Assembly: GCA_020426325.1 (NCBI GenBank)
Contig: JAGQQG010000001.1
Span: 62,001 to 126,000, forward strand
Reading direction: 5' to 3'
DNA: 64,000 nucleotides
Source of the DNA: Planctomycetaceae bacterium
Lineage (GTDB): Bacteria > Planctomycetota > Planctomycetia > Planctomycetales > Planctomycetaceae
The notes under the pieces were generated by a model. That model was not told where the DNA came from. It saw only the letters and a program-made list of their open reading frames with translations, and made no database searches. Within the stretch, counting starts at the first letter, position 1. Every line of letters begins with the position of its first letter. Below, one piece after another: positions 3,488 through 26,464 of the stretch. Made by a program: the position numbers and the translations under genes.

Positions 3488-4384
3488 TCAGAACCTCGCT
3501 TTGCGTTGTGAGAGGTATTCGACGAGCGCCTTGTCGAAGTGCATGCTCGTGTCCAGTTCGACGAAGTCCGCTCCGCACGCGCGGCACTCCTTGCGGAACG
3601 TACCCCGGAGTTCTTCGAGGGCTTCACGGTAATCGGCACGGATGCCGGCTGCATCGACGAGCATCGTTTCGTCCGACTCCGGGTCCTTGAGATCGCACAT
3701 TCCGTCGAAGGGGAAGTGCACCTCCGCTTCATCGAGGACATGGAACACGATGACGTCGTGTCCGCCAAATCGGAGCATACGGATCGCCTCGATCACCGGC
3801 CCGGCATCGGTCAGCAGGTCGCTGAACAACATCACCAGACTCTTGTGTTTGACCATGGAGGCGAAGCGTCGGAGATTGAGTGCAATCTCCGTCGGGCCGG
3901 TTGGCTGGGCTTTCGCCAGCAGGGCGAGGATGTTTGCAAGTTGTGAGCGTTTGCTCTTCGCCGGCAGCGACGCCCGGATCTTGTCGTCAAACGTGATCAG
4001 TCCGACCGGGTCCTGTTGATGCACCATCAGGTAAGCAAGTGCAGCTGCGAGACAGACGGAGTACTCGAACTTCGTCAGTTCCTGTCGATACGTGTACGCC
4101 ATGCTCTCCGAAAGGTCCATCAGCAGGTAGCCGGTGAGATTGGTCTCAGCCTGATACTTCTTGATGTAGTAGCGATCCGTCTTGGCGTAAACGAGCCAGT
4201 CAATGTCCTTCGGGTCGTCCCCCTGTGTGTAACGGCGATGCTCGGAGAACTCGACGCTGAATCCATGAAAGGGGGACGCATGCAACCCGCTCAGAAACCC
4301 TTCGACGATGAACCGCGCACGCAGATCCAGCCTTGCAACCGTGCGAATGACTTCGGGCTTGAGATAGGCTTCAGCGGCGGGCAT
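3488..4384 (-). CDS. DUF58 domain protein (vWA-like, MoxR partner)
   Basis: The DUF58 signature runs SEHRRYTQGDDPKDIDWLVY (about residues 47-66), followed by a vWA-like region with the MIDAS-type DLSESM motif. Such proteins are normally co-transcribed with MoxR AAA+ ATPases, and moxR lies directly upstream on the same strand here, 69 nt away. The family is thought to help MoxR-driven assembly of protein or metal-cofactor complexes; the client is unknown. The spacer to moxR is filled by 7-nt repeats that abut the ATG, and I see no Shine-Dalgarno sequence before the start. No downstream BatA/BatB-type genes follow. Confidence 0.88.
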   Translation of the reverse strand: MPAAEAYLKPEVIRTVARLDLRARFIVEGFLSGLHASPFHGFSVEFSEHRRYTQGDDPKDIDWLVYAKTDRYYIKKYQAETNLTGYLLMDLSESMAYTYRQELTKFEYSVCLAAALAYLMVHQQDPVGLITFDDKIRASLPAKSKRSQLANILALLAKAQPTGPTEIALNLRRFASMVKHKSLVMLFSDLLTDAGPVIEAIRMLRFGGHDVIVFHVLDEAEVHFPFDGMCDLKDPESDETMLVDAAGIRADYREALEELRGTFRKECRACGADFVELDTSMHFDKALVEYLSQRKARF

Positions 4385-4385
4385 G

Positions 4386-4448
4386 GTCAGTTGTCAGTTG
4401 TGAGTTGTCAGTGATGGCATGGCTGAAAACTGATGACTGAGAACGGAA
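4386..4448. repeat. 7-nt repeat, inverted pair with almost no cargo
   Basis: Read on the plus strand, units GTCAGTT, GTCAGTT, GTGAGTT, GTCAGTG run from 4386 to 4413. After 14 nt the reverse-complement type follows: AACTGAT, GACTGAG, AACGGAA (4428-4448). The two arms can pair as a hairpin. It fills nearly the whole space between the moxR stop (complement of 4454-4456) and the DUF58 start codon (complement of 4382-4384). Confidence 0.8.
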
Positions 4449-5470: not shown

Positions 5471-5635
5471 GATGCTAGTTCTCCAGAATGTTGTCGCTCA
5501 TACGGGCTGGGGATGCCGCAGAGTGGGATGTCAGTGTAAGGCAATCGAAAATGTGACGCTATGACCGCGAGTCGGGCTGAATCAACCTGGGTCTGTTCTT
5601 CGTACGATCATCGGGGCAGTCAGTGCTGGCGCTCG

Positions 5636-5665
5636 TTGACAACAAAAACGACCCCCCATTACACT
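5636..5665 (+). promoter_or_regulatory. Candidate sigma-70-type promoter for hppA
   Basis: A perfect TTGACA at 5636-5641 is followed after 18 nt by TACACT (four of six matches to TATAAT) at 5660-5665. Transcription would start near 5672, downstream of the earliest in-frame start of the hppA reading frame and upstream of 5764, which supports the later translation start. Confidence 0.5.
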
Positions 5666-5763
5666 CCCCCGCAAAGGTCTCCTTCATTACCACAGACGTC
5701 GTTAACGCTTATGTCGACGACATGCGACGTTTACCAACCCTCATGGCGGAGCAAACCCCTCGG

Positions 5764-8367
5764 ATGATCATGTTCAGCCGCAGCCTCAACTCCTGCTCGA
5801 AGCTCGGGCAACGTTTCCTCGCAATCCTGTTTGTCACTTTGATGTCCGCCCCGGTGTTGGCCCAGGATGAGGCCACTCACGAGGCCGCGACCGCATCAGG
5901 CGGAGGAGTGTCCGTCCTGATCGGCTGGCTGGTTGCATTGGCAGGCTCGATCACTGCACTCATCTTTGCATTCCGGTTCTATGGCTGGATGAAGGCACAG
6001 GACGAAGGTGACGCGAGGATGGTCGAGATTGCAGGCCATGTTCGCGCCGGTGCGAACGCCTACCTGTGGCGCCAGTATCGGGTCGTGCTATTGTTCTTCA
6101 TTGTGACTTCGCTGCTGTTGACGATCGTCGCGTTTGGATTTGGTGCTCAATCAAAGCTCGTTCCGTTTGCGTTTTTAACTGGTGGTTTCTTCTCTGCTCT
6201 CGCCGGTTGGTTCGGCATGAAGACCGCCACGTGGGCCAGTTCACGGACAGCACAGGCTTGCAAGCAGTCCCTTAATGCAGGGCTTCAGGTCGCGTTTCGT
6301 AGCGGTGCAGTCATGGGGCTGACAGTGGTCGGCCTTGGTCTGCTGGACATCTGCCTGTGGTTTGCAGCTCTCTATTGGTTCGCTCCGATGTTCGGGAGTA
6401 GCTATAGCCTGGAAGAGATCACCGTCACCATGCTTTGCTTCGGGATGGGAGCGAGCAGCCAGGCATTGTTCGCACGCGTTGGTGGTGGCATCTTCACGAA
6501 GGCTGCGGACGTGGGAGCTGACCTCGTCGGCAAGGTTGAAGCCGGTATCCCTGAAGACGATCCCCGCAACCCGGCGACGATCGCTGACAACGTGGGAGAC
6601 AACGTGGGTGATGTCGCAGGCATGGGGGCCGACCTCTACGAGTCCTACTGCGGTTCGATTCTGGCAAGTGCAGCTCTAGGTGTGGCTGCCTATACCGGCC
6701 ACTTGCAGATGCAGTTGATGATGCTCCTGCTGCCGATGGTGCTTGCAGGCCTCGGTATCGGTTTGTCGATCATGGGGATGTATCTGGTCCGTACGGAAGA
6801 GGGGGCCAGTCAAAAGAATCTGCTGGAAGCCCTTGGTCGCGGAATTAACGGCAGCAGCATCGGTGTTGGCGTCGTGGCGTTTCTGCTGGTCACATTGATG
6901 CTCGTCCTGCCTTCGCAGGGGATGAGTGATCTGAACGACACCGGCTTACGGCAGGGTTGGGACCTCCTTGGAGTGTTTGCAGCGATCGTCACTGGACTTG
7001 TGGCCGGGTGGTTGATCGGCTGGTGGACCGAGTATTCAACCAGTGACGTCTACGCCCCAACGAAACGAATTGCAGACCAGGCCGCCACGGGACCAGCGAC
7101 GGTCATTATCGCAGGTGTGGCAGAGGGTTTTTACAGCGTCTGGGTTCCGATTGTTGTGATTGGTTTCGCGATTATCATCGCCTTTGGTGCATGTACAGGT
7201 TTTAACTTTGCCGATCCTCAATTGTTTGCGATGGGGCTTTATGGCGTGGCGATTGCTGCTGTCGGCATGTTGAGTACGCTCGGCATCACGCTCGCAACGG
7301 ACGCCTATGGTCCGATCGCTGACAACGCGGGCGGCAATGCTGAGATGTGTCACCTCGACCCGCAGGTGCGAGAGCGAACCGATGCACTCGACAGCCTGGG
7401 GAACACGACTGCTGCGACCGGCAAAGGCTTTGCGATTGGATCGGCGGCTCTCACCGCATTGGCCCTGTTGGCCGCATACGTCGAAGAAGTCCGCGTCGGC
7501 TTTGAACGGTGGGCGGACCGCACCGAAGTTGTTGCCTCCGAGAGTCTGTCGAATGCAACCGTTGTCATTATTCGTCCCGGAGTCGTTGCCTATCGCGGTC
7601 CCGAGGATTCCCATAATCGCGCCTATCTGGTGTTCGAACCTCTGAACCAGTTTCAGCGAGACGTGATGGGTGATGCGGCTCCGGGTGCTCGCGAGGTTGG
7701 TGAACAGGTGACCGTGGACATGGCGAATCTGGAAGAGCGAGGAATGGCCGTCAATGCCCACTACGCCACCATGCCCGATTTCGTTCGGTTCTACGACGTC
7801 TCAATCATGAATCCAAAGGTGCTTGTCGGAATGTTTATGGGTGTGATGCTGGCGTTCGTCTTCTGTGCGATGACCATGAAGGCTGTCGGTCGGGCAGCCG
7901 GTTCAATGGTCGAGGAAGTGCGCCGCCAATTTCGTGAGATCAAAGGGATCATGGAGGAAGAGGCCGAACCCGATTATGCAGCGTGTGTCGATATCAGCAC
8001 GGCTGCTGCTCAGCGTGAGATGGTCGTCCCGGCCTGTCTGGGACTGCTCGTGCCGATTCTTGTCGGACTTCTGCTCGGTGTCGGCGGGGTGATGGGGATG
8101 CTGGCTGGCGGACTCACCAGCGGCTTTGCAGTTGCCATCATGATGGCCAATGCAGGCGGTGCGTGGGACAATGCCAAGAAGTACATCGAAACCGGTGCTC
8201 ACGGAGGCAAGGGCACTCCCGCTCACAAGGCGGCTGTCGTCGGTGACACCGTTGGCGATCCCTTCAAGGATACTTCCGGTCCGAGCTTGAACATCCTCAT
8301 CAAACTGATGAGTATGGTCAGTGTGGTCTTCGCCGGCCTCATCGTGCAATACGCACTCAATTTTTAG
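5764..8367 (+). CDS. hppA: Membrane-bound, ion-pumping pyrophosphatase, K+-dependent type
   Basis: This is a polytopic pump that couples PPi hydrolysis to H+ or Na+ export. The active-site block [11 protein letters not shown] with [10 protein letters not shown] (about residues 249-285) and the C-terminal [14 protein letters not shown] (about 826-840) are intact. The determinant [10 protein letters not shown] (near residue 545) has Ala and Gly where K+-independent enzymes have Lys and Thr, so K+ dependence is expected; the pumped ion cannot be told. The frame is open from 5623, but I choose ATG 5764 because it gives a signal-like start ([20 protein letters not shown], ending near ALAQ-type cleavage) and follows the promoter at 5636-5665; ATG 5743 or 5770 are alternatives. 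At 867 residues it is longer than usual: roughly 100 extra residues follow the GNTT block (about residues 572-680). Confidence 0.93.
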
Positions 8368-8368
8368 G

Positions 8369-8857
8369 GTCGGTCGTCAGTTGTCCGTGGTCCGTTGTGG
8401 TTGGCACATGAGGGATCGGAAGAATGGCGCGACCGCAATTTGAAAACCTCCAAGTATATCAATTGTCGGAGGAGATCGCGGATCTGATCTGGGACATCGT
8501 CGCAAGTTGGGAGCATTTTGCACGGAACACTGTCGGTAGTCAACTCGTCAGGGCTGCTGACAGTATTGGAGCAAACATCTCTGAAGGAGCTGGTAGGGGT
8601 TCGTTCCAGGATAATAAGCGGTTTGTCAAAATCGCTCGTGGATCGCTGAATGAAACACAACACTGGTTGCGACGTGCTTATCGACGCAACTTGTTGAGCG
8701 ACGAACAAACCAGTACTCTTAAACCTCTCATCGATGAATTAGGGCCAAAGCTCAACGCCTATCTGAACTCTATCGGACGCGGACATTGATCAGTCAGATC
8801 AGTGCAACACAGCACATGACAACTTCAGCAACGGACCACGGACAACTGACCACGGAC
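8369..8857 (+). mobile_element. Putative cassette A: 7-nt inverted repeats around an S23 gene
   Basis: The left arm (8369-8403) begins one base after the hppA stop codon and consists of 7-nt units GTCGGTC, GTCAGTT, GTCCGTG, GTCCGTT. The right arm (8830-8857) carries AACGGAC, CACGGAC, AACTGAC, CACGGAC. Positions 8376-8396 are the exact reverse complement of 8830-8850 (21 of 21), and the next unit matches 5 of 7. The enclosed DNA is one four-helix bundle gene. The right arm lies inside the first codons of rsfS. That this is a mobile cassette is inference; no transposase is present. Confidence 0.55.
8424..8789 (+). CDS. Four-helix bundle protein (S23/Avd-like)
   Basis: The motifs FENLQVYQLSEEIADLIW, QLVRAADSIGANISEGAGRG and FVKIARGSLNETQHWL are the signature of the four-helix bundle family first seen in 23S rRNA intervening sequences; it is related to Avd proteins of diversity-generating retroelements. 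Length of 121 residues is typical. Members bind nucleic acid where tested, but the role of chromosomal copies outside rRNA is not established. No reverse transcriptase or rRNA is nearby. The gene is the only content of an inverted 7-nt repeat pair inserted between hppA and rsfS. Confidence 0.9.
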   Translation: MARPQFENLQVYQLSEEIADLIWDIVASWEHFARNTVGSQLVRAADSIGANISEGAGRGSFQDNKRFVKIARGSLNETQHWLRRAYRRNLLSDEQTSTLKPLIDELGPKLNAYLNSIGRGH

Positions 8858-9223
8858 CAACACCAACGTAGTCTCGAGAATGCGGTCGAAGTCGCGCGAA
8901 TCTGTGATGCTTACCGGGGGCGCGATACGCTCGTGCTCGATCTCACCGGCATTACGCCCATTTGCGATTACTTCGTGATCACGACCGGCACCAACCGCCG
9001 GCAGATTCACGCCATCGCGGACGAGGTGAATCGTGTCCTGAAACAAAGCGGCACGAGACGCAGGGGACGTGAGGGTTACGACGAGAGCAGCTGGGTCGTC
9101 CAGGACTACGGTGACGTTGTTTTGCACGTGTTCACCCCCGAGACCCGCACCCTGTACGACCTCGAAAACCTCTGGGGCGACGCCCCGCATGTCGCGTGGG
9201 ATGACTCTGCTGAAAGCGAGTAG
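8816..9223 (+). CDS. rsfS: Ribosomal silencing factor RsfS
   Basis: RsfS binds uL14 on the 50S subunit and blocks subunit joining in starved cells. The core is complete: DTLVLDLTGITPICDYFVI, TGTNRRQIHAIADEV, VVQDYGDVVLHVF and the ending LYDLENLWGDA. The start is ATG 8816 (a TTG at 8786 is also in frame). With either start, the first 15 or so residues (MTTSATDHGQLTTDQHQ) are encoded by the right arm of the 7-nt repeat rather than by conserved rsfS sequence; conserved sequence begins at SLENAVEVAR. No good Shine-Dalgarno sequence is visible before 8816. Confidence 0.92.
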   Translation: MTTSATDHGQLTTDQHQRSLENAVEVARICDAYRGRDTLVLDLTGITPICDYFVITTGTNRRQIHAIADEVNRVLKQSGTRRRGREGYDESSWVVQDYGDVVLHVFTPETRTLYDLENLWGDAPHVAWDDSAESE

Positions 9224-24869: not shown

Positions 24870-26464
24870 TGGCCCCAGGACAAACGAGCAAGATGGGATC
24901 AAGGGTTGTCGTTGTCGGTGGCGGACTCGCGGGACTGTCTGCCGCAGCCGTGCTGACTCAGCAGGGTCTCGCAGTCACGCTGCTGGAATCGCGACCGCGC
25001 CTGGGTGGGCGTGCAGGGTCCTTTCTCGACAACGAAACGGGCGAATGGATCGACACATGCCAGCACGTCGGCATGGGGTGCTGCACGAATCTGTTGCACT
25101 TCACTCGTTTGGTGGGGATTGACGATTTGTTCCGCGAAGAGCGGGAACTGACGTTCATCGGCCCCCAAGGTGAACGATGCCGATTTCGAGACAACATTGG
25201 CCCCGCACCGTTCCATCTCACGCGGGCATTGATGGGACTTCGATATCTGACGCTGGGCGAAAAAGTGCGGCTGGGACTCGACCTTCGCAGACTCGCGCAT
25301 GCTCGTTGGGCGAAAGCGAACGACATCTCGTTTGAGGACTGGTTGTTGAAACACAGCCGGTCGAGGGATCTCCGTGATCGGTTCTGGGACGTCATCCTCG
25401 TCAGTGCGCTGAGTGACACAACCTCACGGATAAGTGTTTCCGCGGCGAGAAAAGTGTTTGTCGACGGGTTTCTCTCGCACCGGTCAGGATGGCGGGTGTT
25501 GCTGCCCACCGCACCTTTGGATGAGATCTATGGTCAACGACTGACCAATTGGCTGACTTCGCGTGGGGCTACCGTTCTCATGCAGACAGGGATAACTCAG
25601 CTCGAAGAGCAGGAGGGGCGAGTGAGTGGTGCTCGATTGCGATCAGGCGAGTTGATGAGAGCGGATGAGGTTATCCTTGCGGTGCCGTGGCATCGTCTGG
25701 CAGACATCGTGCCCCCGTCGCTGGTAAATCATCCGACGGTGGAAGCTGCATCGCAACTGAAATCTGCATCCATCTCCAGCGTGCATTTGTGGTTCGACCG
25801 ACCGGTGATCGATGTGCCTCATGCAGCATTGATCGGACGGTTGAGCCAGTGGGTGTTTGCGAGGGTTGAGAGTCAAGGAATGAGAGTTGAGAGTCAAACG
25901 ACAGTTCCCAGTGAGCAGGGGGGAAGTCATCGGCCAACTGAATTCTCAGATCTCGGATGCGACCACTCACCACAGGCAACTAACAACGGACCACTGACAA
26001 CGGACCGATTACCACTCTCCACTCACCACTCACCACTCACCTATCTGCAGGTAGTGATCAGTGCGAGTCATGAGGTGAGTGCGAAACCGCGAGCGGAGGT
26101 GATAGCGGAGGTCCTGCGAGAACTGGGTGAAATCTGGCCTGCGATCCGGGAAGCCAGTCTCGTTCATGGGCGGGTGGTGACCGAACATCGTGCCGTGTTC
26201 TCTCCGCTGCCGGGAAGTGAGGCGCAGCGTCCCGTTCAGCAGTCGCCGATTCCGAATCTCCAGTTGGCAGGAGACTGGACGCGCACCGGATGGCCCGCGA
26301 CGATGGAAGGAGCCGTCCGAAGCGGATACCTTGCGGCAGAGAATGTGCTCAGGCGTCAGGGACAGAGCGTTTCGTTTGTGCAACCGGGACTGCCTGTCAG
26401 TCGCACGGCGAGTGTGCTGTTTGGAATCAGAGGTGATGGGATGCAGAGCAGGACGCAAGGATGA
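24869..26464 (+). CDS. hpnE: Hydroxysqualene dehydroxylase HpnE with in-frame repeat insertion
   Basis: An N-terminal FAD-binding motif VVVVGGGLAGLSAAAVL, RPRLGGRAGSF, and a C-terminal LAGDWTRTGWPATMEGAVRSG mark the squalene-associated FAD-dependent desaturase (HpnE) that converts hydroxysqualene to squalene for hopanoids or carotenoids. No HpnC/HpnD lies in the window. Residues about 331-391 are not part of the family: they are encoded by a 7-nt-periodic repeat (25861-26040) and read like low-complexity peptide (NNGPLTTDRLPLSTHHSPLT). Conserved sequence resumes at LQVVISASHEVS. Starts GTG 24866 or ATG 24893 are alternatives. It overlaps the esterase gene and the downstream channel gene (ATGA at 26461). 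Confidence 0.88.
   Translation: MAPGQTSKMGSRVVVVGGGLAGLSAAAVLTQQGLAVTLLESRPRLGGRAGSFLDNETGEWIDTCQHVGMGCCTNLLHFTRLVGIDDLFREERELTFIGPQGERCRFRDNIGPAPFHLTRALMGLRYLTLGEKVRLGLDLRRLAHARWAKANDISFEDWLLKHSRSRDLRDRFWDVILVSALSDTTSRISVSAARKVFVDGFLSHRSGWRVLLPTAPLDEIYGQRLTNWLTSRGATVLMQTGITQLEEQEGRVSGARLRSGELMRADEVILAVPWHRLADIVPPSLVNHPTVEAASQLKSASISSVHLWFDRPVIDVPHAALIGRLSQWVFARVESQGMRVESQTTVPSEQGGSHRPTEFSDLGCDHSPQATNNGPLTTDRLPLSTHHSPLTYLQVVISASHEVSAKPRAEVIAEVLRELGEIWPAIREASLVHGRVVTEHRAVFSPLPGSEAQRPVQQSPIPNLQLAGDWTRTGWPATMEGAVRSGYLAAENVLRRQGQSVSFVQPGLPVSRTASVLFGIRGDGMQSRTQG
25861..26040. repeat. 7-nt repeat pair inside hpnE
   Basis: The left part (25861-25895) has GAGGGTT, GAGAGTC, AAGGAAT, GAGAGTT, GAGAGTC. 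The right part is eleven consecutive 7-nt units from 25964 to 26040, including AACGGAC, CACTGAC, AACGGAC, CACTCTC and three CACTCAC. The two parts are of reverse-complement type, as in the intergenic copies. The length keeps the hpnE frame open. Confidence 0.85.

Follow-up and report, generated by a model that had tools for sequence, protein, structure and literature searches.

The window, by which we mean the whole 64,000-nt stretch of Planctomycetaceae DNA analyzed here, carries a compact element between hppA and rsfS that is composed of one S23 gene enclosed by inverted arrays of short repeats (Table 1). The two arms form a 30-nt inverted repeat in which 28 of the 30 positions are complementary, with mismatches at 8372 and 8375. 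An earlier description made from the letters of the window alone (the sequence-only reading) had placed an exact 21-bp inverted pair at 8376-8396 and 8830-8850. That pair is real, although its perfect core is 22 nt long (8376-8397 and 8829-8850). The same reading had the arms built from 7-nt units, as indeed they are: each arm consists of four units that conform to GTCMGTK on the left strand, and TRF reports a period of 7/14 for the right arm as well. Its placement of the arms relative to the host genes also stands. Because the TAG stop codon of hppA occupies 8365-8367, the left arm begins 0-1 base after that gene, and because the ATG of rsfS is at 8816, the right arm encodes residues 5-14 of RsfS. 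As RNA, the whole element is predicted to form a hairpin in which the arms provide the basal stem and the S23 ORF occupies the loop (MFE -189.4 kcal/mol, z -6.7).

Table 1. Positions of the S23 element, its host genes and S23-less repeats within the window.
Feature	Position	Strand	Remarks
S23-less decayed arms GTCAGTTGTCAGTTGTGAGTTGTCAGTG, then degenerate right arm	4386..4440	+	Right arm recognized by eye; inverted-pair search found none
hppA, H+-translocating pyrophosphatase	5623..8367	+	Upstream host gene; name from the sequence-only reading, synteny confirmed in relatives; start approximate
Whole element, 491 nt	8368..8858	+	Arms plus S23 gene
Left arm GGTCGGTCGTCAGTTGTCCGTGGTCCGTTG	8368..8397	+	Four GTCMGTK-type units, directly 3' of the hppA stop codon
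S23 / 23S_rRNA_IVP four-helix-bundle gene, 121 aa	8424..8789	+	PF05635, TIGR02436; same direction as hppA and rsfS
rsfS	8816..9223	+	Downstream host gene; PF02410, TIGR00090
Right arm	8829..8858	-	Inverted array of the same units as the left arm; translated within the RsfS N-terminus
S23-less heptamer arrays, C-rich side	25961..26041	-	Window-type units, then a different unit, ACCACTC

The S23 gene is the sole gene between the arms, as had been claimed, and PF05635 is the only Pfam domain inside the element. Its product matches PF05635 with 103.4 bits (cut-off 33.8) and TIGR02436 with 97.8 bits (cut-off 24), placing the protein above the curated cut-off over the whole domain and hence within the S23 family. 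A possible Shine-Dalgarno sequence is present within AGGGATCGGAAGA, immediately 5' of the gene. Relatives with solved structures are 2gsc and 2rld, and a weak PHROG match links the protein to Avd, which forms a pentameric ring. The S23 protein of Xanthomonas is likewise a pentameric ring (PMC4990558). S23 proteins are common, are named after rRNA inserts and have an unknown function; the window genome (G000) encodes five. PADLOC models of anti-phage defence gave zero matches, and a single-protein scan of viral contigs revealed no S23 gene carried by a phage.

We examined the generality of the arms in two collections. The family set comprises 84 distinct S23 genes from 61 genomes of the family and three additional genus-mates (planctomycete-like by content). 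The wide set comprises 80 loci from a scan of GTDB genomes for a different S23 subgroup via conserved S23 motifs, in which one large subgroup was sampled. Arms were scored as the best ungapped inverted match between the 300-nt flanks on either side of S23, with a threshold score of at least 12. Inverted arms surround 70 of the 84 genes in the family set (83%), nearly all with a dominant period of 7, and 69 of the 80 genes in the wide set (86%), which spans Planctomycetota, Proteobacteria, Bacteroidota, Cyanobacteria, Chloroflexi, Acidobacteria, Firmicutes, Gemmatimonadota, one archaeal MAG and others. For comparison, a score of 12 is reached in the family set by 1.4% of flanks after shuffling and by 4.6% after mispairing, and control rates across both sets are <2% for shuffles and 5-8% for mispaired arms. 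Of 320 intervals drawn at random from the contigs of these loci, 5.9% attain the threshold and three (0.9%) do so with a period of 7, such that the enrichment of arms around S23 over controls corresponds to a Fisher p of ~1e-47. Thus, the association of 7-mer repeats with S23 genes, which the sequence-only reading had named as a check on its proposal, is strong both family-wide and across phyla. Chance or an assembly artefact has nothing more in its favor than the draft state of some genomes; it is refuted by the control rates and by complete genomes and closed plasmids, in which the design recurs, and we consider its probability negligible.

The design is not uniform in every respect. Arms went undetected at about 15% of S23 genes, and the plasmid copies, which are mostly cyanobacterial, share the design except for L146. 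When both arms are taken together, 128 of 145 loci show a best period of 7 or 14 and 12 a best period of 8, the latter group including L222, L225, L185, L198 and L206. Four units per array is the commonest length and five the next; a match between five units per arm and the pentamer was dropped, given the peak at four units. In L169, a control interval (~3650-3900) encodes the S23-typical FGLTSQLR, so that this locus probably contains another S23 gene ~1 kb downstream of its first one.

Elements in relatives have a median length of 466 nt and occupy a characteristic position. In these public genomes, with neighbour ORFs called mechanically and with loci that share both genus and site not being independent, S23 is co-directional with its neighbours in 52 of the 54 loci that have callable co-oriented neighbours, and six annotated plasmid loci agree with this sense orientation. 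In 46 of the 56 loci where both neighbours are defined, the upstream stop codon falls -16 to +10 nt from the left arm; the downstream start lies a median of 16 nt past the right arm. The neighbours belong to unrelated core operons, including ruvB, the succinate dehydrogenase iron-sulphur subunit, Der, Obg, a lipoyl enzyme following a pyruvate dehydrogenase-like gene, thiolase/acyl-CoA dehydrogenase and methylmalonyl-CoA mutase, and further examples are BrxL, cas6-cas4 and cmr2-cmr3. The nuoC-nuoD junction is a recurrent site, occupied in seven alphaproteobacterial loci, whose units differ, and by one planctomycete cassette with a window-type S23 (L161, L163, L181, L186, L196, L200, L220 and L026 across the two phyla). 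Cassettes within CRISPR-Cas operons were observed in L147 (Picosynechococcus) and L148 (Anabaena 90), at cmr2-cmr3 and cas6-cas4 junctions. The 23S rRNA IVP has been listed as CRISPR-associated (PMC10910872), and these cassettes may account for that reported association.

Location at operon junctions and sense orientation would also suit an operon regulator, in which S23 is a host RNA-binding protein, the heptamer hairpin is a signal for mRNA processing or autoregulation (for example an RNase III site), and arrays without the gene constitute a regulon. The strong RNA fold of the window element and the persistence of cassettes at nuoC-nuoD in the seven alphaproteobacterial loci are consistent with such a role, but the host genes are functionally unrelated. 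The sense bias itself may stem from purifying selection or from dependence on the host promoter, and not from a preference during insertion.

The repeat units vary between loci (GTCAGTT, AGGGAGT, GAGTCGA, AGTTGAT, GGCCAGA and so on), yet they are identical on both sides of any one gene. Across 145 loci, arm similarity increases with S23 similarity (Mantel p 0.001): a unit is shared by ~3% of distant S23 pairs, by 44% of pairs with a normalised S23 score of 0.6-0.8, and by all 6 of 6 pairs above 0.8. The group of window-type S23 genes spans eight genomes; most of its members keep GTC-type units while residing at different sites. Window-type arrays occur in 6 of the 8 genomes with a window-type S23 versus 12 of the 53 without one (p 0.006), and a reversed-pattern control yields zero arrays in 61 of 61 genomes. 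The unit variants also follow matching orders in the two arms of a locus (22.3 vs 18.2 after unit-order shuffling, p 8e-17), indicating that the arms were formed, or have been kept, as a pair. Mismatches between arms exhibit no G.U bias (136 vs 138), and hence there is no sign of selection maintaining an RNA hairpin. Selection for a sense-RNA hairpin was dropped as a candidate on these grounds, and the lack of asymmetry speaks against the operon regulator. A need for stop codons in three frames is a conceivable cause of period 7; the left arms carry no excess of such stops (0.21 vs 0.19) and the right arms a moderate one (0.175 vs 0.078).

Evidence of mobility comes from filled and empty sites. 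In no fewer than 13 other genera, hppA and rsfS adjoin each other with no S23 between them. Within the genus, G015 carries the cassette at the same place as the window genome, which implies that the window insertion is not very recent, and the site is empty in G063. By HppA and RsfS identity G015 is the outgroup, and the N-terminal sequence of RsfS in G063, TTTENGTLTTNQ, is similar to the one encoded by the arm; we therefore infer from these sequences that the cassette was acquired basally in the genus and that G063 subsequently lost it. A third genus-mate, G062, has no S23 of this kind, its contig breaking at the hppA-rsfS site, and it probably lost the cassette too. The empty gap in the genus-mates was found to hold a different, REP-like hairpin repeat, CCGTTTAGCCGCGACCCACGGGAGCGCTCCCGTTGGTCGCGGCTAAACG (L145 / L104 in G063; L103 at the contig start in G062). 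S23 genes that are 60-73% identical to that of the window sit away from rsfS, one of them at nuoD.

Closely related Nostoc plasmids provide a second case. Their site A is filled in L149, L150 and L238 and empty in five others at 88-96% identity, with empty sequences of the GGTTCTAGGTTATGC type versus filled sequences reading GGTTCTA-AATCAGG...GGATTCTAG-TTATGC. The 5-nt TTCTA at site A could be either a target-site duplication or heptamer microhomology, and site B is accompanied by deletions. One plasmid that is empty at site A has a different S23 cassette at the next junction. At site B, one plasmid carries arms without S23. Presence and absence among near-identical plasmids and within one genus are difficult to reconcile with the operon regulator. 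The elements thus exhibit both filled and empty orthologous sites and related copies at unrelated sites, as expected of mobile elements. Relatives do not all carry the gene at the same place, and the earlier proposal of a small cassette with tandem-unit ends inserted at a gene boundary is supported.

Copies of the arms are also found without the gene. In L238, an S23-less hairpin with the same unit as the host cassette is inserted within the S23 ORF, and S23-less forms occur in L242 and, in the window genome, at C391 and L015. A second site in the window genome retains an S23-less remnant whose arm unit is that flanking S23 in G062 and G063. In G001, we observed ~37 single, unpaired GTCAGTT arrays without S23 (L255-L291). 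Seventeen of these have a further period-7 array within 160 nt downstream, mostly C-rich and of a different unit, and arms of different lineages seem to have been combined there.

The many S23-less arrays and hairpins could be explained if the heptamer hairpins were MITE/REP-like sequences moved by an ordinary transposase, with S23 a passenger captured between two of them. REP/RAYT and MITE systems are generally known to move small hairpins in trans, and REP/RAYT (REPtron) and MITEs resemble the cassette in having a small protein gene between inverted short-repeat copies and gene-less copies elsewhere. RAYT is a Y1 tyrosine transposase that acts on a short palindrome, whereas the window protein contains no Y1 domain and the ends of its element are arrays of 7-nt units. 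Moreover, one gene family is found between arms in many phyla, the unit tracks the S23 lineage, and no other cargo was seen among the S23-centred loci sampled. Capture of S23 as a passenger is an improbable account. The solo arrays of G001 could also be read as a regulon, and a possible regulatory role has been proposed for the TAACTGA heptamers of Beggiatoaceae, cyanobacteria and Bacteroidetes, which are direct repeats (MacGregor 2015, PMC4679880). Those heptamers share with the arms a tandem 7-nt unit, an intergenic location and a patchy distribution across phyla, and TAACTGA is one base off the CAACTGA of the window unit, but that paper draws no connection to S23 (PMC4679880). Insertions that interrupt 23S rRNA or another S23 ORF add to the evidence against the operon regulator, which we judge improbable.

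The 23S rRNA insertion is that of L152, on plasmid AZO_p2 of Azospirillum lipoferum, where an S23 ORF with heptamer arms replaces a helix loop; relatives carry the small stem-loop GTATCGCAAGATAC at this position. In Coxiella burnetii, the intervening sequence (IVS) has tandem GACAGAT heptamers upstream of its ORF and a 28-bp terminal stem, horizontal acquisition has been proposed for rRNA IVSs, and the Coxiella S23 protein seems not to be produced (PMC4990558). Like the window element, the rRNA IVSs of Coxiella burnetii and Leptospira, ~430 nt in length, have a long inverted-repeat stem whose loop contains an S23 ORF. The window element has the same long terminal stem around its ORF, but it lies at the mRNA operon junction of hppA and rsfS and not in rRNA, as L152 does. 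The sequence-only reading had set the cassette apart from rRNA IVSs. This contrast does not hold, as rRNA IVSs with an S23 ORF (Azospirillum L152, Coxiella) display the same heptamer design; given the arms of the former and the heptamers and stem of the latter, the IVSs in rRNA and the cassettes in operons appear to be elements of a single kind. The open-access literature contains no description of S23 with heptamers outside rRNA and no paper on TIGR02436, and to our knowledge the two-sided heptamer arms and their match to the S23 lineage are apparently undescribed.

Genome comparison establishes the architecture, the lineage-specific units, presence and absence, the independent sites, the orientation bias, the S23-less copies and the 23S rRNA example. 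From these we conclude that the S23 cassette is probably a selfish, mobile, IVS-like element whose S23 protein recognizes its own heptamer arms. The mobility and architecture of the element are well supported, and we infer the binding of S23 to the arms. An element of ~430-540 nt, with S23 as its sole gene and ends made of inverted 7-nt arrays specific to the S23 lineage, would settle in the sense direction at the stop/start junction of co-transcribed genes, a position that should do the host little harm and in which it would be carried by the host promoter. Transcription of the host operon would express S23, and the transcript would fold with S23 in the loop; within 23S rRNA, the same element would be the known intervening sequence. 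S23, whose solved relatives are pentameric rings, would recognize the heptamer arms and be needed for movement of the DNA that they bound, including S23-less copies in trans. Since no nuclease or polymerase motif is known in S23, cutting and joining must be supplied by a host activity, which might be a reverse transcriptase (as with the relative Avd), a transposase, or template-switching during replication.

In a retro-element version of this mechanism, the S23 transcript and the S23 ring would form an RNP that is copied into DNA by a reverse transcriptase (RT) acting in trans. This would explain the sense orientation in operons and rRNA (a bias of 52/54), the sites include rRNA and core operons, and S23 is related to the Avd protein of diversity-generating retroelements by a homologous four-helix fold (PMC10053308). 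Unlike those retroelements, the window gene is flanked immediately by hppA and rsfS, and RT, TR and VR are absent beside it. An RNA copy would fit the sense bias, but selection for host-driven expression explains the bias equally, and no RT tied to the element was found here. We regard this version as rather unlikely.

More tentatively, the selfish S23 cassettes might constitute a separate pan-bacterial class of mobile element, lacking a transposase or terminal repeat, in which a pentameric ring reads 7-nt arrays and the targets are operon stop/start junctions and rRNA loops, possibly via an RNA copy. The members and debris of this class would then include the rRNA IVSs and some of the heptamer repeats of bacterial genomes, a prospect that is about as doubtful as it is plausible, leaning slightly toward doubt.

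These findings give S23 a concrete and testable partner, namely its own 7-nt arms, and recast the rRNA IVSs as one particular form of a general mobile element. They also suggest a possible source for the patchy heptamer repeats of bacterial genomes. S23 genes in cas operons or near other systems may be insertions and not parts of those systems. If it is true that the S23 ring reads the repeat units directly, this would represent a new mode of DNA or RNA recognition.
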